A DNA stretch of 64,000 nucleotides, from the NCBI RefSeq assembly GCF_000214215.1, contig NC_015559.1:62001-126000 (forward strand), written 5' to 3'. Position numbers and translations under genes: made by a program. The DNA comes from Marinomonas posidonica IVIA-Po-181 (lineage in GTDB: Bacteria; Pseudomonadota; Gammaproteobacteria; Pseudomonadales; Marinomonadaceae). Shown piece by piece: positions 39,499 through 49,744 of the stretch. Every line of letters starts with the position of its first letter. Within the stretch, counting starts at the first letter, position 1. The notes under the pieces were generated by a model. That model made no database searches. It was not told the DNA's origin and was given only the letters and a program-made list of their open reading frames with translations.

Positions 39499-41484
39499 TT
39501 ATTTTAACGTATCGAGACGTTTCGCAATGGCATCAATTTCCTGACTCATGCTACTAAGCTGACTGGAGTCTGCGGCATTACTGCCGGTTAATTCCTGAAG
39601 TCTCGCGACAAACATACTTAACTCTTGCGACACTTTTTGTTGTTCACTGGCCGCCACGGAAATTTGAGTGGCTTGGTCGGTAATTTGTGAGAACGCACTC
39701 ACCACTTGTTGTAAATGAGTAGCGGTAGATTCAGCGGTAACAACCGCTCTTTCGGTCTCGTTGTGCCCTAGCTCCATAGCACTGACGGATTGTTTTGACG
39801 TCACTTGTAAGCGGCTTAAGACTTGTTCTATTTCCACGGCAGAGCTTTCACTTTTCGCAGCTAGGTTACGCACCTCATCCGCCACGACGGCGAAACCTCG
39901 ACCCGTTTCTCCAGCACGAGCCGCTTCAATGGCCGCGTTTAGAGCCAGTAAATTGGTTTGCTCTGCAATGTCACGGATCACACTCAACATACCATTTGCC
40001 TGACGACTGTCATCATCCAGTTTTAATATGCTGTTTTGAGCATTGGTCATGGCAGTCATTAAGCTGCGCATGGTGGTGATGACAGTATTCATTTCTTCGC
40101 CGCTGCTGCGCACATCTTGGTGAATGCGTTCGACTGTTTCTTTTGTTTCATTGGCGTACATGGCAACATCGTGAGAAGTCGCCCCTAGCTCTTCTGTGGC
40201 AGCCGCTAAGGTCGTATTTTCGTCACTTAAACTATTGGCTTTAGCGAGAAAATTGTTACTAAAGTCATTTAAACTTCCGGCATCTTTCACTAAGTTGGCC
40301 GATTCAATGTGAATTTGAGCCAATAGTTGTTTGAGCTTATCACCATATGCATTAACGGCTTGACGTAGTTCACCCAGTTCATTGAGTTTGCCAACGGTCA
40401 GTGCTTGGCTACTGCCGCCATCCGCTAATTCTTGAATTTGCGCTTTGGTCTGGTTGATCTTACTTAATAAACTTCTAAAGAAGGTGCCAGCGATGAGACT
40501 GACGACAATTAATAATGCACCAATGACTAGCATTAGGAAGAGTCCCATGCTTTGGGCAATTTCTGTCATGCGAGCTTTTGGCACCACAAGACCAATGGTC
40601 CAGCCTGTTTCTGGATGACGGACTAGGTCTACATAGGCGGCCCCGTTGAGTATGTTATCGTGGCTTAATGAAATGACAGTTTCTTTGTCTGTTACCTTGA
40701 TTAACGCCGGTTTTAGCCAAGGCAGCTGTTCCCCCAACTCTTGACTGGTCAGCATGCTACCATCACTTTTGACCAACTCAGCCTGTCCTTTCGGAAAGCT
40801 TAAGACTTGCCCTGTTTGGTCAATTGCGAACACATAACCTTGGTTTTCTTTACCATATTGCTCGAGTGTTTGTGTGACACCATCTAGCATCATGTCAACT
40901 GTGGTCACCCCAGTAAATTGGTTGTGCTCTTTCATTGGGATGGTACAGGTTACCATTGGAATTTGCGTCACAGGGTCAATGTAAGCTTCTGACCAAGCAC
41001 ACAGATCAACTGAGGTTGTTTTTCCCACGGCATACCAGCCCTCATTGTGATAGCCTGACCCTGTCGGATCATTGTAATCGTCTAAATAGGTCATCTTGGA
41101 ACCATCACGACCCCAGAAAAAGCTGCGACGCTCCACGCCTTTCGCAAACGCTGAGGGCTCTGGCCAAATACCACCTCCGGCAATGCTTTTATCATTATGG
41201 TTATTAATAATACTGGGAAAGAGCTTCTTAAAAAGACTTTCTTCTTTGGGCAACTGAGCACCCGCCAAGGCCAGGGTACTGGTCAGTAATTGAATTTTTT
41301 CTAATTTCGCATCGAGCAAATCCGTTAAAGCTTTTTGGTTAACCGAAATTTGGTGTTGGCGTTCAGCTGTGAGGTCTGGTTTGACTTTTATTTCAATGAC
41401 TAGATAAATACTAATGAGTGCAAGTAGTAATATAGCGATAAGGCCAATATTAATTTGCTGGCGAATCTTGATAGGGGATTTCAT
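39499..41484 (-). CDS. Methyl-accepting chemotaxis protein with dCache sensor
   Basis: A 661-residue chemoreceptor. An N-terminal helix (about 12-32) precedes a periplasmic double-cache domain of roughly 290 residues ([36 protein letters not shown] is the membrane-distal pocket region). The second helix lies near 325-347, followed by a HAMP-like segment and the signalling domain with [37 protein letters not shown] intact. The canonical amino-acid motif arginine before WY is not evident (NEGWY), so the ligand may not be an amino acid. GAGGT precedes the start. Confidence 0.92.
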
Positions 41485-41645: not shown

Positions 41646-42395
41646 CTAGAATAATAAGTTAACACCTTGATAATGAAGTTGACTTAAAAGAGAGGCGCTA
41701 GGTTCTACGTCTGTGATGACGCAATCATAATCACTTATTTTCCCTGATAAACAACGTGATTCCATTTCAAACTTTGTACTGTCTATTAAAAGGATTCGAT
41801 AATGGCAGTGCTCTATTAGTGCTTCTCTTGCCATGACCTCTTCATCTGTGAAATCGAATAATTGCCCACTTTTATTGACGGCAGCCACAGAAAAAATACC
41901 AATATCCGCACGATAATGTTGAAAGAAACGCATGGCGTCACCGCCAATAATATCTTGATCTCGCATTCGGACCCGACCACCAGAGATGGTCAGTTCACAA
42001 TCAGGGTGTTCGCATAAGTTTCTAGCAGCATGAAGGTTTGTGGTCATCACTTGCAAACCTTGTAACCCCGTTAATTGATTGGCCACCTCAGACACACTCG
42101 AGCCACTGCCGAGAAAAATCGTTTGATAATCTGCCAGTTTGGTTCTACAGAGTGCGGCGATGTGTTGTTTACCGAATGCGTTACGAATACGTCTTTGGTC
42201 AAAACTAATGTTTTCTCTATGTGGAAAAGGGATGACTTCACCATGGCTGCGAAGAATTAAGCCTTTTTCCGTTAGCAGCCTAATATCCGCACGAATGGTT
42301 TGAACTGAAACACTGAATTTCTCTGCGACGGTTTGTAGGCTTTGTCTACCATTCGCATTAACCCATTGAACGATATCATGATGGCGTTGGTTCAT
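41646..42395 (-). CDS. DeoR-family transcriptional regulator
   Basis: A 249-residue DeoR/GlpR-type regulator. The N-terminal winged helix includes LQTVAEKFSVSVQTIRADIRLL and the C-terminal sensor has the isomerase-like GSGSSVSEVANQL loop that binds a phosphorylated sugar. The family typically senses sugar phosphates. It is divergent from the ABC/phosphoesterase locus, with a CTTTCG-AAA-CGAAAG dyad in the spacer, so it is the likely controller. Its effector may be a product of the hydrolases in that locus. No strong ribosome site is visible. Confidence 0.88.
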   Translation of the reverse strand: MNQRHHDIVQWVNANGRQSLQTVAEKFSVSVQTIRADIRLLTEKGLILRSHGEVIPFPHRENISFDQRRIRNAFGKQHIAALCRTKLADYQTIFLGSGSSVSEVANQLTGLQGLQVMTTNLHAARNLCEHPDCELTISGGRVRMRDQDIIGGDAMRFFQHYRADIGIFSVAAVNKSGQLFDFTDEEVMAREALIEHCHYRILLIDSTKFEMESRCLSGKISDYDCVITDVEPSASLLSQLHYQGVNLLF

Positions 42396-42607
42396 TGATT
42401 GAGAGCTCGCATTTTATTTGGTCATTAACCTAGGGAAGGTGCGAATAAGTCTTCTGAAAGACCCGAAGGGCGTGGGCTAAGCTCTCTTTATTCTTTGTTA
42501 AGCTTATTGCCAATATATTCATATTGGAAGGCGAAACTTGCCTCGAATAAAAGAGAGTGATTCCCACGTTGCCGTAGCCAGTGAACTTGCTCGTACCTTC
42601 CCTAGCT

Positions 42608-42642
42608 CTTTCGAAACGAAAGAAAAACATCATTAAACGAAA
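42608..42642. promoter_or_regulatory. Candidate DeoR operator region
   Basis: CTTTCG-AAA-CGAAAG (42608-42622) is a perfect dyad. The octamer AAACGAAA occurs twice in the same orientation, at 42614-42621 and 42635-42642, exactly 21 bp apart (two helical turns). DeoR-family operators commonly use such repeated CGAAA elements. The region lies just upstream of the putative promoter of the ABC locus. Confidence 0.55.
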
Positions 42643-42654
42643 ATATTTGGTCAC

Positions 42655-42660
42655 TATAGT
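42655..42660 (+). promoter_or_regulatory. Candidate -10 box of the ABC/phosphoesterase operon
   Basis: TATAGT inside the palindrome CACTATAGTG, 55 bp before the binding-protein start. The -35 (ATTAAA at 42632-42637) is weak and overlaps the operator repeats, consistent with a regulated promoter. Confidence 0.4.
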
Positions 42661-42714
42661 GTCAAATTATTGCGCTATTGTTTCAACTCCTTAATCAAAA
42701 TGAGAGTTGCTCCA

Positions 42715-43692
42715 ATGATGCTTAAGAAAACGTTATTAATGTGTGTTGCATTAACCTTTCCTCTAATGGTTCAAGCTCAAGATACCTTGACACTGTATAC
42801 CAGCCAACCAAACAAAGATGCTCAAATGACGGTAGATGCTTTTGAAAAGGCAAATCCTGATATCAAAGTGGATTGGGTTAGAGATGGTACGACGAAGTTA
42901 ATGGTTAAGTTGCGAGCAGAATTGTCTTCAGGAGTGGTAAAACCAGACGTACTGTTAATCGCAGATAGTGTCACAATGGAATCTATGGTGGCAGATGACT
43001 ACTTATATCCCTACTTGAGCCCTTATCGAAAACGCTACGAATCAAGTCTTTATAACTCGAAGGGCTATTACTATGGCACTAAGCTCATTACAACGGGTTT
43101 AGTTCGTCATCTAAAAGCACCTCAGACGCCAGTTGATTGGTCTGATTTAGTGAAACCTGAATATAACAATCAGGTCGCCATGCCAAGCCCGTTATATTCC
43201 GGAGCTGCCTTGATTCATTTGGCAACTTTAACTGCAGCTCCGTCTTTAGGTTGGCACTATTATGAGCAGCTTCATCAAAACAAAGTGCGCGCCCAAGGCG
43301 GTAATGGTGGAGTGTTGAAAGCCGTTGCCTCAGGCACTAAACCGTATGGGGTGATTGTTGATTTTTTAGCCATTCGTGAAGCCGCTAAAGGTTCCCCAAT
43401 AGAGTTTATTTTCCCAAAGACGGGCGTCAGCATGGTGACTGAGCCGGTTGCGATTATGAAGGGCGCTAAGAACAAGCAGGCTGCCAAGCGTTTTGTTGAT
43501 TTTGTGTTATCTGACGTTGGCCAAGAACTTGTTCTTAAACAAGGTTATTTACCCGCACTTGATGGCATTGGTGTTCCTGCAGGATTCCCAAAACGAGAGA
43601 ACATACGTTTAATGCCATTTGATGCAGCTCAGACGCTTAAAAATAATGCGTCAAATAAAGCGCGTTTCAGTGACATCTTTGAAGGCAAATGA
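42715..43692 (+). CDS. ABC transporter substrate-binding protein, FbpA/AfuA-like
   Basis: A roughly 325-residue periplasmic binding protein. The signal peptide (MMLKKTLLMCVALTFPLMVQA-Q) is clear; the start is 42715 or the adjacent ATG at 42718. The mature part opens DTLTLYTSQPNKDAQMTVDAFEK, as in the ferric/2-aminoethylphosphonate/hexose-phosphate group (SBP_bac_6/8 type). I do not see the adjacent tyrosines expected for ferric binding in FbpA, so iron is not supported. AfuA, in the same family, binds hexose phosphates. The stop overlaps the permease start by ATGA. Confidence 0.82.
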   Translation: MMLKKTLLMCVALTFPLMVQAQDTLTLYTSQPNKDAQMTVDAFEKANPDIKVDWVRDGTTKLMVKLRAELSSGVVKPDVLLIADSVTMESMVADDYLYPYLSPYRKRYESSLYNSKGYYYGTKLITTGLVRHLKAPQTPVDWSDLVKPEYNNQVAMPSPLYSGAALIHLATLTAAPSLGWHYYEQLHQNKVRAQGGNGGVLKAVASGTKPYGVIVDFLAIREAAKGSPIEFIFPKTGVSMVTEPVAIMKGAKNKQAAKRFVDFVLSDVGQELVLKQGYLPALDGIGVPAGFPKRENIRLMPFDAAQTLKNNASNKARFSDIFEGK

Positions 43693-45422
43693 GTATGACG
43701 TTTGCATCGATAAAAATGGGTTTTGTCTTCGGAGGAAACATGGATAACCAACTTCGTTGGTTATCCACTGGGCTTTTTATTCTCATTGTGTCTTTAAGTG
43801 TTTTACCAAGTGTTCGATTATTACTTGAAGCTCTGAGCCAATTGACTTTTTCTGCTTCCTCACCTCTCGCACAAGTGTTGCAAAGTGAGCGTACTTGGGG
43901 GGCGTTAAAGAACAGTTTTTATACCTCAGGTTTAGGGGCTTTCATTGCCGTCATACTTGGTGCGGGCTTTAGTTTTATCGTCACCTTAACAAACGTAAGA
44001 GGACGCGGCATTTGGGTCTTCTTTTTTATGCTGCCGATGATGATTCCACCACAAGTGACTGCGCTCAGTTGGGTGCAACTGTTCGGTCCAGCAAGCCCAA
44101 TGTTAAATACCTTTGGCATTGCTCCTGCTATAGGCAGTCCGCAACCCATGTACTCAGCAAATGGTATTGCATTGCTGTTGGGCATTCAGAGCGCGCCTTT
44201 GGTTTTTTTGACGATGCGGACTCAACTTGTGTCATTGCCTCAAGATTTGATCGAGGCCGCTCAATTGGCGAAAGCGTCTTCTTTTCAAATTTGGTTAGAT
44301 ATTATTTTTCCTTTGTGTCGTAGCGCCTTGGTCGCTGGGGGCGCATTGGCGTTTGTATCCTCGCTTGGAAACTTTGGTATTCCTGCCATGTTAGGCATTC
44401 CAGCTGGTTATATTGTGTTGCCGACATTGATTTATCAGCAAATGGCAGGGTTTGGTAACCAAATGTTGAGTCAAGTCGCTGGTTTATCGATGATCATTGC
44501 CTTACTGGTACTGATGGGCATGCTATTACAACAATGGCTACAGCAGCGAAGTCGTTATGCTCTGCTAGGGCACAGCACACATTCCATCGCGTTTTCATTA
44601 AAAAACTGGCGTATACCGCTCGAAATATTATTGGCCACCATATTGAGCTTTATTTTAGTGATTCCTTTATTGGCATTGGTAGTCAGTTCAATGGTACCTG
44701 CGCTTGGCATGCCGTTAACATTAAATACGTTTACCTTATCTGCATTTGAAGAAATGATTAGCCGTCAGAGTGTGACCTTCAGAGCATTTGAAAATAGCAC
44801 TTGGTTGGCGTTTTTTAGTGCACTTGTACTGATGTTGGTATCATTACCATTAGGCTATTTATTAATGCGCATGCCGTTGCGCCTTCGTTCCGTGATCGCA
44901 AGTTTGATTGAAGTGCCCTATGCCATCCCTGGCATTGTCCTCGCGATTGCTTTCATACTGTTGTTTGCTAAGCCTTTACCTTTCATTGGCATTTCTCTTT
45001 ACGGTACGTTAAGCATCATCTTTCTGGCGTACTTGTCCTGTTTCTTAAGCGTTTGTTTAAAACCCGTGTTGATGGCCATGTCTCAACTGGATCCGGCCTT
45101 AGAGGAAGCGGCACAGCTGGCAGGAGCTAAGTCCATTCGCCGCTTAATTGACATTATCTTGCCTTTAACCGCGCCCGCCTTTTTTGCTGGTGGCTTGTTG
45201 GTCTTTCTGATTGCCATTAATGAGCTGACAGTGTCAGCCCTACTCTGGAGTGCGGGAAACGAGACGTTAGGGGTACTGATTTTTAATTTAGATGAAAGTG
45301 GTGACAGTGTTATGGCGTCGGCCATTGCGGTATTGGTTGTTGTATTAGTAGCGGGTGTGATGGGGTTATTAAACCTTTGTGCGTCACGCCTGCCAAAAGG
45401 AGTGATTCCATGGCACGACTAG
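43689..45422 (+). CDS. ABC transporter permease, fused two-domain (FbpB/AfuB-like)
   Basis: A 577-residue inner-membrane protein with about twelve helices, formed by two permease domains in one chain. Each has an EAA-type loop: LIEAAQLAKASSFQIWLDIIFP in the first half and LEEAAQLAGAKSIRRLIDIILP in the second. This layout is usual in the ferric/phosphonate/hexose-phosphate ABC family. The start overlaps the binding-protein stop; an internal ATG at 43740 after GGAGGAAAC is a plausible alternative start. It is co-transcribed with the ATPase. Confidence 0.85.
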   Translation: MSMTFASIKMGFVFGGNMDNQLRWLSTGLFILIVSLSVLPSVRLLLEALSQLTFSASSPLAQVLQSERTWGALKNSFYTSGLGAFIAVILGAGFSFIVTLTNVRGRGIWVFFFMLPMMIPPQVTALSWVQLFGPASPMLNTFGIAPAIGSPQPMYSANGIALLLGIQSAPLVFLTMRTQLVSLPQDLIEAAQLAKASSFQIWLDIIFPLCRSALVAGGALAFVSSLGNFGIPAMLGIPAGYIVLPTLIYQQMAGFGNQMLSQVAGLSMIIALLVLMGMLLQQWLQQRSRYALLGHSTHSIAFSLKNWRIPLEILLATILSFILVIPLLALVVSSMVPALGMPLTLNTFTLSAFEEMISRQSVTFRAFENSTWLAFFSALVLMLVSLPLGYLLMRMPLRLRSVIASLIEVPYAIPGIVLAIAFILLFAKPLPFIGISLYGTLSIIFLAYLSCFLSVCLKPVLMAMSQLDPALEEAAQLAGAKSIRRLIDIILPLTAPAFFAGGLLVFLIAINELTVSALLWSAGNETLGVLIFNLDESGDSVMASAIAVLVVVLVAGVMGLLNLCASRLPKGVIPWHD

Positions 45423-46453
45423 TATTGGACCAAGTGCAAAAGTCTTTTCAAGGAGAAAAGGTCATTAATAGCTTGAGTTTAAATATTGAAGCAGGTGCAT
45501 TTGTGGCACTGCTTGGGCCAAGTGGTTGTGGAAAATCTACAATTTTGAGGATGTTGGCAGGCTTTGAAAATGTGTCGGCAGGAGAAATACGACACGGCGA
45601 CCAATGTCTCTCCAATGTTGAAGTCCATGTCTCAACGGAAGCGCGCCCCTTTGGTATGGTGTTTCAATCCTATGCCTTGTGGCCTCACATGACTGTTGAG
45701 GAAAACATTGGTTACCCTTTGAAAGTACAAAAAATCAATAACAAGGAAAGAGTTAAGCGGATTGCAGAAGCATTAGACATTGTTCAGTTGAATGATTATG
45801 CCAAACGTCTACCTGCACAGTTGAGTGGCGGACAGCGCCAACGTGTGGCTTTAGCTCGTAGTTTGGTCACGGAACCGGATGTTATTTTGTTCGATGAGCC
45901 TTTGGCAAATTTAGATAAGCATCTGAGATCCTCTATGGAGGAAACCTTTAGAGCGTTCCATCAAAGAACGGGCGCGACCATGGTTTATGTGACACATGAT
46001 CAAGCCGAAGCCATGTCTCTTGCTGATCAGGTAGCCGTGCTAAAACAAGGAGAATTAGTTCAATGGGGCACACCTCAAGAAATATACAATAATCCTAAGA
46101 CCGCATGGCTTGCTAATTTCATAGGGCGAGGCTCTGTCCTGAACATTGCTGAAGTGCCGCCATCAAAATATATATATCAAGACGAATTACATGAAAGACT
46201 ACAGGGTAGTGATCGTGCTGGGGTGACAAGCCATGTTTTAGTTCGTCCACAAGATATTACATTCAGTGATTCTTCGATGTTTGGCTTACCTGTTGTCGTT
46301 AAACAATGCATTTATCGTGGTGAACGTTATGACATTGAATTGTTACTCAGCAACGGACAAGCTTTGTTGGCGTATTCAGATGTACCGTTAATGCAGGGCA
46401 GCTCGCATTTTGTGGTGTTGCATCAGGCTTGGTCGTTAGAGAGCAAATCATGA
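45410..46453 (+). CDS. ABC transporter ATP-binding protein, FbpC/AfuC-like
   Basis: A 347-residue ATPase. Walker A GPSGCGKST, signature LSGGQRQR, Walker B ILFDEPLANLD and switch VTHDQAEA are intact. A C-terminal TOBE-like domain (about 280-347, SHVLVRPQDITF) is present. I start it at 45410 after AAAGGAGTGATTCC. Its start lies inside the permease 3' end, and the MBL gene overlaps its stop by ATGA, so the locus is tightly coupled. Confidence 0.88.
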   Translation: MARLVLDQVQKSFQGEKVINSLSLNIEAGAFVALLGPSGCGKSTILRMLAGFENVSAGEIRHGDQCLSNVEVHVSTEARPFGMVFQSYALWPHMTVEENIGYPLKVQKINNKERVKRIAEALDIVQLNDYAKRLPAQLSGGQRQRVALARSLVTEPDVILFDEPLANLDKHLRSSMEETFRAFHQRTGATMVYVTHDQAEAMSLADQVAVLKQGELVQWGTPQEIYNNPKTAWLANFIGRGSVLNIAEVPPSKYIYQDELHERLQGSDRAGVTSHVLVRPQDITFSDSSMFGLPVVVKQCIYRGERYDIELLLSNGQALLAYSDVPLMQGSSHFVVLHQAWSLESKS

Positions 46454-47574
46454 GGTTATCGGTAGATATTTTGAGTGGTGGAGGCCGTAAGACCGCGGCA
46501 GCAATCTTACTGGTCTGCGACATACCAGAGCAAAATACGTCAGTGCGATTTTTACTGGATGCCGGTGGTGCGCTCGAACTGGATGAGGATAAGGGTTGGC
46601 AACAGCCAGACAATTTAGACGCCATTTTTATTTCCCATGACCATCAAGATCATATGGGTGGTTTAGTTGACATAGAAGGGCAAGTTCCTGTTTATGCAAC
46701 GAAAGCCGTTCAGCCGCAATTACCCAATCATTTAAACTTAAAGGACTTATCTGTTTGTGGTAGCCAAATAGTTTCGGGCATTAAGGTGACGACTGGTTCT
46801 GCAGGGCATTCTTTTGGTGGTGTTTGGATGCATTTCGATATAGCGGGAGGAGTATTTTATAGCGGTGATTTTAGTCTTGAATCCAGCCTATTTCGTTTTA
46901 CGCCGCCACCTACTGCACAATTAGCTTTATTAGATGCATCTTATGGCTTGTATGAGCATTCGTTACAACAGAGTAAGCAAAAGTTAGAGCAGTACCTTCT
47001 TCGGAGTGAGTCACTGCTTATGCCGGTTCCGCAGACCGGTCGAGCACTCGAAATAGCCTGTTGGCTAACTTCAATAGGCTTTGATGATTGGAGTTTAGGA
47101 AATGACTGTGTCAGTCCTGAACTTGCACTATCTGGACCTGATATGGGGATTTCTGAAGATTCCCAACGCATTTTAGCTGGCATGCCAAGCCATGATTTTA
47201 ATCCTAATGCCAAAGTGTTGCTGTGTGGTGACCCTGATGGACTAGGGGGAGACTCTGCGCGACTACTGAGCCAAGCTGAACGTTATTTTCCTCTTTACAC
47301 AGGCCATTTACCTGCTCATGCAAGGCAAGCGGTGGCGATAGGTGAAGCGGATTTTGTACGTTGGAACGTTCACCCTCGTATTCAGGATTTGCAGTTACTT
47401 AGTAGCATGTTGTCTTGTCAGATATGTGTTCCTCTGTTTCACGAATTCAAAGATAAAGCGTCTTGGCATGTGGCCTTGGGAAAGTGTTTTTCATCGGATT
47501 CTTATATTGAGTATGACTATGATATTGATCAGAAAGCCCTTTGTCTTTGCTCGTCACGCACAGAGTACATTTAA
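46450..47574 (+). CDS. MBL-fold metallohydrolase
   Basis: A 374-residue metallo-beta-lactamase-fold protein. The metal motif HDHQDH is complete (His63, His65, Asp67, His68), a further His lies in TGSAGHSFGG, and a bridging Asp in YSGDF. The fold resembles RNase Z/PhnP-like phosphodiesterases more than lactamases. The start overlaps the ATPase stop by ATGA, tying it to the importer. In context it is best read as a phosphodiesterase or other phosphoester hydrolase acting on the imported compound. The substrate is not known. Its 3' end overlaps the next gene by about 60 bp. Confidence 0.75.
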   Translation: MRLSVDILSGGGRKTAAAILLVCDIPEQNTSVRFLLDAGGALELDEDKGWQQPDNLDAIFISHDHQDHMGGLVDIEGQVPVYATKAVQPQLPNHLNLKDLSVCGSQIVSGIKVTTGSAGHSFGGVWMHFDIAGGVFYSGDFSLESSLFRFTPPPTAQLALLDASYGLYEHSLQQSKQKLEQYLLRSESLLMPVPQTGRALEIACWLTSIGFDDWSLGNDCVSPELALSGPDMGISEDSQRILAGMPSHDFNPNAKVLLCGDPDGLGGDSARLLSQAERYFPLYTGHLPAHARQAVAIGEADFVRWNVHPRIQDLQLLSSMLSCQICVPLFHEFKDKASWHVALGKCFSSDSYIEYDYDIDQKALCLCSSRTEYI

Positions 47575-48073
47575 TCAAGCGTATTTAATTGGTGGCGCGA
47601 CAGACAGTCCATTGAGTCCGTTAGGGGTTAAGCAGGCCAAAGCTGCTCAGCCAACCTTGGCAAGAGTCCAATGGAGTCAGGTGGTTACGAGTACACTTAA
47701 AAGAACACAACAGACCGCTCAGTTTGCTGTTCCTGATCAGTCTTTGTTGCCGTTAGCGGCGCTGTGCGAGCGAAACTGGGGAGTACTTGAAGGCCAGCCA
47801 ATCGAAGCACAACTTCCTTATGAAAGAACTCCTGAACAGGGAGAGTCGTGGCGAACATTTGAACTGCGAATTTTAGAAGGCTTAAACCAGGTATTGGAAG
47901 TGTATGAATGGCCGTTAATTATTGCTCATTCAGGTGTTTATAGAGTGTTGAATAATTACATAAACGGAACGCCTTATTGTCCGAGGATTGGCAATGTGGT
48001 CCCTATTTCTTTTATCCCCAACCAAAACGACAGTGGTTGGGTAATCAGTTCATTTGAAGGAACGTTTGTATGA
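47513..48073 (+). CDS. Histidine phosphatase family protein
   Basis: A protein of 186 residues (184 if it starts at 47519) of the phosphoglycerate mutase-like histidine phosphatase superfamily. FARHAQSTFN carries the catalytic Arg-His pair, with RHA replacing the usual RHG. ERNWGVLEG matches the central block, and IIAHSGVYRVL holds the second His. The long upstream open frame lies inside the MBL gene and is not used. It overlaps the MBL gene and, by ATGA, the HAD gene. It probably removes a phosphate from an intermediate of this locus. Confidence 0.82.
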   Translation: MTMILIRKPFVFARHAQSTFNQAYLIGGATDSPLSPLGVKQAKAAQPTLARVQWSQVVTSTLKRTQQTAQFAVPDQSLLPLAALCERNWGVLEGQPIEAQLPYERTPEQGESWRTFELRILEGLNQVLEVYEWPLIIAHSGVYRVLNNYINGTPYCPRIGNVVPISFIPNQNDSGWVISSFEGTFV

Positions 48074-48522
48074 GTCCAAATGCGGTTATTGTTGATTTAG
48101 ATGGCACATTAGCTGAGTTCGATCCACAGCAAGTTGCTCATTGGGTATTAGGGGCAGAAAAGCATTGGGATCCATTTTTTGATCATATGAAAGAGGCGCC
48201 TGTCATTGAAAATATTCTTCGTTTGGTCAAGATATTAAAACAGCAGGGACAAAATATTTTGATTTGTAGTGGGCGACCAACATCACATGAAGAGCACTCA
48301 ATCACTTGGCTCAAAAGACATAATATTCCTTTTGATGGGATCTATTTAAGACCGGATGGTGTCGATGGTATGCCTGATGAAGAAGTCAAAAAATTCCTTT
48401 TGGAAAAAATTGAAGCAGATGGTTTTGAGCCTTGGTTAGTACTTGATGATCGAGATGCGGTGGTGGCTGGCTGGCGCCAATTAGGCTTAACTTGCTTACA
48501 GTGCGCACCGGGAAATTTTTAG
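48070..48522 (+). CDS. HAD-family phosphatase resembling T4 PNKP 3'-phosphatase domain
   Basis: A 150-residue HAD protein. VDLDGT carries the nucleophile Asp9 and acid Asp11. The C-terminal block LVLDDRDAVVAGWRQLGLTCLQCAPGNF aligns by eye with the end of the phosphatase domain of T4 polynucleotide kinase-phosphatase (DDR, then VV..WR..G..C.Q.A.G.F), and ICSGRP matches its second motif. PNKP domains remove 3'- and 2',3'-cyclic phosphates from nucleic acid ends. No kinase domain is present here. The start overlaps the histidine phosphatase by ATGA. Confidence 0.78.
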   Translation: MSPNAVIVDLDGTLAEFDPQQVAHWVLGAEKHWDPFFDHMKEAPVIENILRLVKILKQQGQNILICSGRPTSHEEHSITWLKRHNIPFDGIYLRPDGVDGMPDEEVKKFLLEKIEADGFEPWLVLDDRDAVVAGWRQLGLTCLQCAPGNF

Positions 48523-48589
48523 TATGACGTGTGTGGCTATTCATTTAGTCACACGTTAGCATGTGGAAAATTTCGTTGGGAGTAATGCA

Positions 48590-49744
48590 ATGTTTCAACT
48601 GGTTTTGTTGAGTCAGAAACAGCAGGTTGATGTGGCAAATTTGTCGTTAAACGCTGAGTTAATGGGGTTGCCTAAAGAGATCCCGATACAGGTAGAACAG
48701 ACGTGTTTGGTCGGTGGTAAACAAGCGGGTTCGCGTGTGATTCGACTAACGGTGGGGGATACTGTGGTGCGAGTGGTGCCGACTCGTGGTATGGCAATTC
48801 TCGAAGCCACTCGTCATGGCGTGCGCTTTGGCTGGGATTCTCCCGTGAAAGAAGTCGTGCATCCTAGCTTTATTAATCAGGAAGCGTCTGGTGGTCTTGG
48901 CTGGTTAGATGGGTTTAATGAAATGCTGGTACGTTGTGGTTATCAATGGGCTGGGCATCCAGGCCAAGATGGCGATGAATTCCTAACCTTGCATGGACGT
49001 ATTCAAAATACTCCTGCCGATGAGGTGGTTCTAGAAGTGGAACAAGTGCCTCCGTATCGAGTGACTTTGCGTGGTCGAGTGGATGAGAAACGTTTCAAAT
49101 TCACCAATTTTGAGCTGCATACTGAGCTGTCATTGACACCCGATCAAGCTTATCTTGACGTCAAAGATCGATTGGTCAATAAGGGAAGTTATCCTCGTGA
49201 GTACCAAGCCATTTACCATAATAATTTTGCCCAACCCATCTTAGAAAAAGGGGCGCGTTTGCATGTGCCTGTGGCTGAGTTATCGCCTTTTAATGACTAT
49301 GCTGCAAATGGTTTAAAAGACTGGTCAGAAATGCCTGCGCCGACCACCGACTTTGATGAAATGGTGTTTAATATTCGCCCTTTAAGTGACTCGGATGGCT
49401 TGTCGTATGCTCTGATGCAGAATGCCCAAGCAAATCAAGGCATCGAGGTGTGTTATTCAACCGATACCTTGCCTTTGTTAACGGTGTGGAAAAATACCGA
49501 TTCATTAGAACAGGGTTATGTTGTTGGCATTGAACCCGGTACCAGTTTTGCCTACAACCGTGCTTACCAGCGACCACTTGGTTTAGTGCCGACCATTGAG
49601 GCCGGAGAATCAAAACAGTTTGTGGTGCGTTTTGGTCTATTCACGAGTGAAAAAGAAGTCACTGAGAGTCGTTTACGCATTGAGCAATTGCAGGCTCAAA
49701 CTTCTCCTCAAGTCTTGTCTAAGCCGGTAGTGGTGTTGGATTAG
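48590..49744 (+). CDS. DUF4432 family aldose epimerase-like protein
   Basis: A 384-residue protein of the galactose-mutarotase-like fold (DUF4432). Family cues are VVPTRGMAILEATRHGVRFGWDSP, GGLGWLDGFNEMLVRCG, LHGRIQNTPA and YHNNFAQP. Enzymes of this fold act at a sugar C1, but many DUF4432 members have no assigned function. GGGAG precedes the start, 67 bp after the HAD gene with only a weak hairpin between, so it may be the last gene of the same operon. Its 3' end overlaps the convergent GGCT-like gene by 26 bp. Confidence 0.8.
   Translation: MFQLVLLSQKQQVDVANLSLNAELMGLPKEIPIQVEQTCLVGGKQAGSRVIRLTVGDTVVRVVPTRGMAILEATRHGVRFGWDSPVKEVVHPSFINQEASGGLGWLDGFNEMLVRCGYQWAGHPGQDGDEFLTLHGRIQNTPADEVVLEVEQVPPYRVTLRGRVDEKRFKFTNFELHTELSLTPDQAYLDVKDRLVNKGSYPREYQAIYHNNFAQPILEKGARLHVPVAELSPFNDYAANGLKDWSEMPAPTTDFDEMVFNIRPLSDSDGLSYALMQNAQANQGIEVCYSTDTLPLLTVWKNTDSLEQGYVVGIEPGTSFAYNRAYQRPLGLVPTIEAGESKQFVVRFGLFTSEKEVTESRLRIEQLQAQTSPQVLSKPVVVLD

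Follow-up and report, generated by a model that had tools for sequence, protein, structure and literature searches.

A widespread ABC importer–hydrolase cassette in Marinomonas posidonica, probably used for the uptake and breakdown of an organophosphate ester

The stretch of Marinomonas posidonica IVIA-Po-181 DNA analysed here (64,000 nucleotides, contig NC_015559.1, positions 62,001 to 126,000; hereafter, the window) carries a tightly coupled operon in which a divergent DeoR-family regulator is followed by a substrate-binding protein (SBP), a fused permease, an ATPase, a metallo-beta-lactamase (MBL) hydrolase, a histidine phosphatase and a PNKP-type HAD phosphatase. The operon is probably devoted to the uptake and catabolism of an organophosphate ester, and the likeliest such compound is a phosphodiester, which may be cyclic. 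Considered separately, import and dephosphorylation of an organophosphate can be proposed with good confidence, because the cassette is conserved, its phosphatases and regulators are swapped between lineages, and in some branches of the family its neighbours include carbon-phosphorus (C-P) lyase or Na/Pi cotransporter genes; that the MBL hydrolase performs a diester step is an evenly balanced matter. An initial annotation had already supposed that the locus imports a phosphorylated compound and strips it of phosphate in the cytoplasm, and this core survives, although the two analogies called upon to sustain it, with AfuA and with PhnP, fail.

The gene set, its coupling and conservation, the intact catalytic motifs, the exchangeable phosphatases and regulators, the predicted folds and the operator repeats come from sequence and comparison, and it is from them that we infer the nature of the ligand, the order of the reactions, the cleavage of a diester and the effector of DeoR. 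The SBP would bind the organophosphate ester through a half-pocket suited to phosphate, and the ABC importer would take the compound in intact; the MBL hydrolase, of beta-CASP type, would hydrolyse the diester to a phosphomonoester, from which the histidine phosphatase, the HAD phosphatase or both would remove the remaining phosphate, leaving inorganic phosphate (Pi) and a carbon moiety that the cell can use. Tandem CGAAAG boxes would be the sites from which the DeoR protein represses the operon, and a phosphorylated intermediate would presumably release it.

Few compounds are known to be imported directly as intact organophosphate esters and dephosphorylated in the cytoplasm, and if a cassette so widespread, and annotated as iron transport, serves this purpose, marine and host-associated bacteria would have an overlooked source of phosphorus and carbon. 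Searches of an open-access library turned up no account of these genes as a set, and public records name its parts “iron ABC transporter permease” and “MBL fold metallo-hydrolase”, which suggests that the cassette has so far gone unrecognised. The broadest form of the proposal, in which an enzyme of beta-CASP fold was recruited as a small-molecule phosphodiesterase to an ABC-import pathway for an unrecognised organophosphate, with at least four unrelated families of phosphatase standing in for one another across the Proteobacteria, is tentative, and we would place it somewhat short of an even chance. To our knowledge, action on small molecules by a beta-CASP enzyme, if true, would be new to the family.

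A constant core with exchangeable partners

A first search, led by the MBL hydrolase, covered plasmid records together with genomes from the same order and found the same importer adjoining it; an SBP-led scan of GTDB contigs added 80 more loci, and a phylum-wide sample comprised 399 genomes. In all, the cassette was found in more than 100 loci, in Marinomonas, Halomonas, enterobacteria, roseobacters, Devosia, Azospirillum and others. According to the gene maps, the succession DeoR, SBP, permease, ATPase and MBL, then histidine phosphatase and/or HAD, is common to Marinomonas, Marinobacterium, Nitrincola, Halomonas and Vreelandella, and the identical layout appears in Escherichia, Siccibacter, roseobacters, Devosia, Thalassospira and Maritalea. 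Since this order recurs in so many genera, and since the window genome has a single HAD_PNKP gene, sited in the operon, and only four His_Phos_1 matches, the grouping of these genes is far beyond chance.

SBP, permease and ATPase accompany 97 of the 100 distinct MBL hydrolases, and a phosphomonoesterase accompanies 94 (histidine phosphatase with HAD in 54, histidine phosphatase alone in 15, HAD alone in 15, a dual-specificity phosphatase in six and the nucleotidase SurE in four); many of these loci were retrieved through the SBP, so that the counts from MBL-led searches are fairer. Those made in two alphaproteobacterial groups gave 36 loci, with the transporter beside the MBL hydrolase in all but two. 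The phylum-wide sample contained the MBL hydrolase in 16 genomes, every one of them among the 27 that have the SBP. The presence of the hydrolases beside the transporter in related genomes had been set beforehand as the check on the initial annotation, and they are indeed there, with the phosphatase replaced in some lineages by unrelated ones. All three of the phosphoesterases claimed for the operon are present in the window, but what is invariant among relatives is the importer with the MBL hydrolase, usually joined by at least one exchangeable phosphomonoesterase.

HAD alone is what Halomonas and Vreelandella mostly have, and histidine phosphatase alone is found in Billgrantia, Enterobacter and some Paracoccus; one clade combines a dual-specificity phosphatase with a LacI regulator and another SurE with a SorC-type regulator, so that the regulator, too, swaps among DeoR, LacI and SorC. 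On an MBL tree built by a quick method, with its long branches flagged, the six partner states require 15 changes, against 43 in shuffles, and SurE forms one supported clade. Because unrelated phosphomonoesterases exchange on a constant core, the operon appears to need the removal of phosphate, and this same exchange makes the question of the ligand directly testable. Some members are adjoined by Na/Pi cotransporter-PhoU genes, whose products could export surplus phosphate. Some transporters lacking the MBL hydrolase lie next to genes of the PLD family or for EEP-family phosphodiesterases (L038:13805-17019, L150:7695-8693 and L179:9186-10292), possibly another exchange, in this case of the phosphodiesterase.

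The cassette from SBP to histidine phosphatase is carried by the Enterobacter hormaechei plasmid p48880_VIM_4 (L032:8210-13613), where it adjoins an IS5-like element; a plasmid of Salmonella (L034) and one of Kosakonia (L033) have versions with the transporter only. The E. coli RefSeq genomes gave no near match to the cassette of Escherichia sp.

Active sites, ligand pocket and competing readings

The MBL hydrolase, a protein of 374 amino acids, was modelled with high confidence, and the top 50 Foldseek matches in the PDB are beta-CASP-family proteins (CPSF73, RNase J, TTHA0252; E about 1e-19, TMq about 0.7), in agreement with the sequence searches. Its HxHxDH motif, motif 3 His, motif 4 Asp and C-terminal His are in place, and 63 homologues all share H63, H65, D67, H68, H120, D140, D162 and H308. 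The initial annotation had called it a phosphodiesterase by analogy with PhnP; the window protein has no match to the PhnP model TIGR03307, and a PhnP- or UlaG-like enzyme was ruled out by the predicted fold. Phosphodiester hydrolysis is still its likely chemistry on the strength of the model, now on a beta-CASP basis, and because the enzyme is of beta-CASP rather than PhnP type, a phosphodiester, possibly nucleotide-like, is the favoured ligand.

The phosphatases, too, have intact catalytic motifs. The histidine phosphatase has the RH motif, second Arg, Glu and second His of branch 1 (R11, H12, R61, E83 and H136, numbered from 47522), invariant in 17 homologues. The HAD protein scores 95.6 bits against HAD_PNKP (cut-off 27.6), has Pnkp1 and T4 PNK as nearest solved relatives, contains the DxDGT motif and keeps D9, D11, G12, T13, S67, K107, D126 and D127, which are invariant or nearly so in homologues; the kinase domain is absent.

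It could be argued from these enzymes that the ligand is nucleotide-like, that is, a 3′- or cyclic nucleotide or a dinucleotide: beta-CASP nucleases, PNKP-type HAD proteins (the nearest being 3′-phosphatases) and SurE, the partner in one clade, are all tools directed at nucleotides. Against this, neither the histidine phosphatase nor the dual-specificity phosphatase has a nucleotide signature, the regulator families are of the sugar type, and clustering of the flanking genes found no nucleoside phosphorylase, kinase or deaminase recurring beside the cassette. The same clustering, when used to look for a sugar or nucleoside enzyme that recurs downstream and might point to the ligand, gave lineage-specific synteny only. 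We hold a specifically nucleotide-like ligand to be unlikely, although more probable than the other alternatives.

As for the SBP, its best Foldseek matches are the glucose-6-phosphate binders VcA0625 and AfuA, the closest solved relatives, followed by P5PA. Pocket assignments were made from hidden Markov model alignments, and are at the level of sequence. The AfuA phosphate positions S37, S148-G149 and G185 correspond to T59, S162-G163 and G198, invariant in 66 homologues together with R56, G58, D84, K123, S158 and N197; AfuA Thr150 is A164 here. The residues critical for sugar binding in AfuA are H205, D206 and E229 (PMC4546632), which align with F217, L218 and T236 and vary among the homologues (F/Y/A, L/M/D/N and E/T/D). 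Since the phosphate positions are kept, whereas the residues for sugar and for iron are absent, the ligand is probably phosphate-bearing, and neither an AfuA-type hexose phosphate nor iron. Moreover, the pocket does not vary between loci whose phosphatases differ, which suggests a single class of ligand.

An AfuABC-like importer of hexose phosphates, in which the hydrolases do no more than take the phosphate off sugar monophosphates and a diester plays no part, would suit both these closest structures and the DeoR, LacI and SorC regulators, which are typical of sugar or sugar-phosphate genes. The absence of the sugar-coordinating residues led us to reject orthology with AfuA; in addition, the MBL hydrolase would be superfluous in such a system, and imported hexose phosphates do not require dephosphorylation, so that this explanation seems improbable.

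Less probable again is a system for the uptake of phosphonates such as 2-aminoethylphosphonate. The SBP, permease and ATPase do score best or near best against PhnS2, PhnU2 and PhnT2, AepX, AepS and PhnS belong to the Pfam family of the SBP (PMC8316502), and some relatives reside within C-P lyase operons: in one genus, phnE, DUF1045, phnM, phnN, SBP, permease, ATPase and MBL form one string, with PhnJ 12 kb off in the same genomes, and elsewhere the SBP-permease pair adjoins phnF. In such strings the MBL hydrolase might have an extra role on cyclic ribosyl phosphate; when we asked whether it compensates for loss of PhnP, no PhnP above cut-off was found in 8 genomes, but DUF1045 was present in the operon of both phn-linked loci. 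The scores, however, fall far under the curated NCBIfam cut-offs (140.6 against 392.75 bits for PhnS2, 315.2 against 457.7 for PhnT2 and 171.8 against 593.25 for PhnU2), the phosphatases of the operon are phosphate-ester enzymes, and PhnJ is absent from the M. posidonica genome and from 9 of 32 genomes of the SBP/cassette family, so that the function of the cassette needs no C-P lyase. On the absence of PhnJ and the failed cut-offs, the phosphonate pathway was set aside.

Import of ferric iron or metal-citrate, as annotated in many records, with the hydrolases there for some other reason, is scarcely credible: FbpA-type folds are among the structural matches of the SBP, but the iron-ligand positions (His, Tyr-Tyr) of the Campylobacter jejuni ferric-binding protein 1y4t are here P32 and F217/L218, for which reason it was rejected, and it is phosphatases, not iron genes, that recur in the cassette. 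No better founded is the view that transporter and hydrolases adjoin without any functional link, as when a pair of RNA-repair enzymes happens to sit next to an importer; the beta-CASP and PNKP combination does recall RNA processing enzymes, but the genes are translationally coupled and co-occur across classes, the MBL hydrolase is found, among the 399 genomes, only in those that have the SBP, and a Falsirhodobacter MBL homologue without transporter (L059:8893-9966) has lost its HxHxDH metal motif, as if decaying once uncoupled.

Several observations weigh against the proposal that the cassette imports and degrades an organophosphate ester. A recognised phosphatase is absent nearby in 6 of the 100 MBL loci and in about 8 of the 36 MBL-led ones, and the transporter is also found without the MBL hydrolase; the proteins of solved structure related to the SBP variously bind hexose phosphates, pyridoxal phosphate, aminoethylphosphonate, metal-citrate or iron, so that the fold alone leaves the ligand unfixed. 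Finally, the beta-CASP enzymes known to us act on nucleic acids, an unlikely cargo for a small SBP of the SBP_bac_6 class.

Layout of the locus and its upstream region

The genes named by the initial annotation are all present in the order and on the strands claimed, as judged from open reading frame positions and Pfam profiles, and the divergent DeoR regulator stands as described (Table 1). The stop-start coupling holds for ATPase and MBL hydrolase and for histidine phosphatase and HAD, each pair overlapping by ATGA; permease and ATPase share 13 bp, and MBL hydrolase and histidine phosphatase about 56-62 bp. The SBP and the permease need not overlap, and are better read as 47 bp apart, since the permease ATG is preceded by a good ribosome site, GGAGGAAAC. 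The DUF4432 gene said to come just after the operon does lie 40-67 bp past the HAD stop, with no overlap, but the gene maps place it at the 3′ side of the cassette in some Marinomonas only, and in view of this patchy occurrence it is probably not a core part.

Table 1. Features of the operon and its surroundings (window coordinates), with the related phn-linked loci
Feature	Position	Strand	Evidence and remarks
Chemoreceptor with PDC/dCache sensor	39499..41484	-	beside deoR
DeoR/GlpR-family regulator	41646..42395	-	DeoRC 5.3e-36, HTH_DeoR 3.4e-13; divergent beside SBP in most relatives
Hairpin element	42434..42601		168 bp; CTAG duplications at 42430-42433 and 42602-42605
Likely DeoR operator	42617..42643		CGAAAG at 42617 and CGAAAA at 42638, 21 bp apart
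SBP, SBP_bac_6 class	42715..43692	+	SBP_bac_6 3e-22; AlphaFold pLDDT 91.8
Permease, two transmembrane domains in one chain	43740..45422	+	BPD_transp_1 5e-24, two stretches; alternative start 43689
ABC ATPase	45410..46453	+	ABC_tran 1.3e-34, TOBE_2
MBL hydrolase, compact beta-CASP type, predicted phosphodiesterase	46450..47574	+	Lactamase_B_2 9.8e-9; AlphaFold pLDDT 93.2
Histidine phosphatase, branch 1, predicted phosphomonoesterase	47513..48073	+	His_Phos_1 6.6e-27; ATG 47513/47519
Stand-alone PNKP-type HAD phosphatase	48070..48522	+	HAD_PNKP 3.9e-27
DUF4432 aldose-epimerase-like protein	48563 (or 48590)..49744	+	DUF4432 1.4e-102; optional follower
phn-linked cassettes (other genomes)	L288:1123-8455; L289:195-8363		MBL closes the string downstream of phnN, C-P lyase region

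Sites of the CGAAA type are abundant in the spacers between deoR and the SBP gene (214 in 77 spacers, against 25.5 in mononucleotide shuffles). The CGAAAG repeat at 21 bp is found in Marinomonas, Halomonas, Vreelandella, Nitrincola and Marinobacterium, and roseobacter spacers have a CTTTCG/CGAAAG pair instead. The repeats of the window precede CACTATAGTG, conserved in the alignment of Marinomonas spacers, with TATAGT just downstream as a possible -10 element. From their sequence and spacing, the tandem repeats are likely the DeoR operator.

Between deoR and this operator lies a hairpin element that is absent there in other Marinomonas, whose ends read GGAAGGTGCGAATAAGT. The genome contains about 25 copies of it or more, and many of them have YTAR-like sites at their flanks; we take it to resemble a miniature inverted-repeat transposable element of the IS5 type. 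Several Marinomonas keep the chemoreceptor gene beside deoR, and in Nitrincola and Vreelandella, too, chemoreceptors of the Cache type are found close to the cassette; the receptor of the window might sense the nutrient of the operon.

Comparison with known systems

Because the features that define AfuABC, FbpABC, PhnP and aminoethylphosphonate systems, where tested, are not those found here, the operon is not filed under any of them. AfuABC and VcA0625 represent the closest solved class of SBP, and their phosphate-binding Ser/Gly/Thr positions are largely kept, but the identity is about 22%, the sugar residues are not shared, and AfuABC is described without coupled hydrolases. The pyridoxal-phosphate importer P5PAB, which holds the phosphate by Thr/Ser/Gly helix ends (PMC8427247), has an SBP of the same family, although its ring-binding Tyr103 and His203 are not recognisable in the window protein and it, too, comes without hydrolases. 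Among NCBIfam models, those of the aminoethylphosphonate importers PhnS2/T2/U2 and AepX/AepS come nearest to the three ABC proteins, with scores far below every cut-off, and the present operon has neither phosphonatase nor C-P lyase. The MBL hydrolase shares its predicted fold and the full set of metal motifs with the nucleases CPSF73, RNase J and TTHA0252, in contrast to which it is compact, translationally coupled to an importer and, judging from the model, probably directed at a small-molecule substrate. PhnP, the 5-phosphoribosyl 1,2-cyclic phosphate phosphodiesterase, is likewise an MBL phosphodiesterase, and one branch of the present family follows phnN in a phn operon, but the fold matches of the window enzyme are those of beta-CASP proteins.

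The closest working precedent is the catabolism of agrocinopine, a sugar phosphodiester, encoded by accR-accABCDEFG on Agrobacterium Ti plasmids, where the importer AccA-BCDE is combined with the phosphodiesterase AccF, the phosphatase AccG and the repressor AccR, which binds the product arabinose-2-phosphate and not the imported agrocinopine (PMC4526662). The likeness resides in the predicted roles of the genes, namely, importer, phosphodiesterase, phosphatase and repressor. AccF and AccG presumably belong to families other than those of the MBL hydrolase and phosphatases of the window, and we do not file the operon as an acc system. By analogy, we propose that the present cassette, much more widespread than acc, would follow the same working logic with different enzymes.

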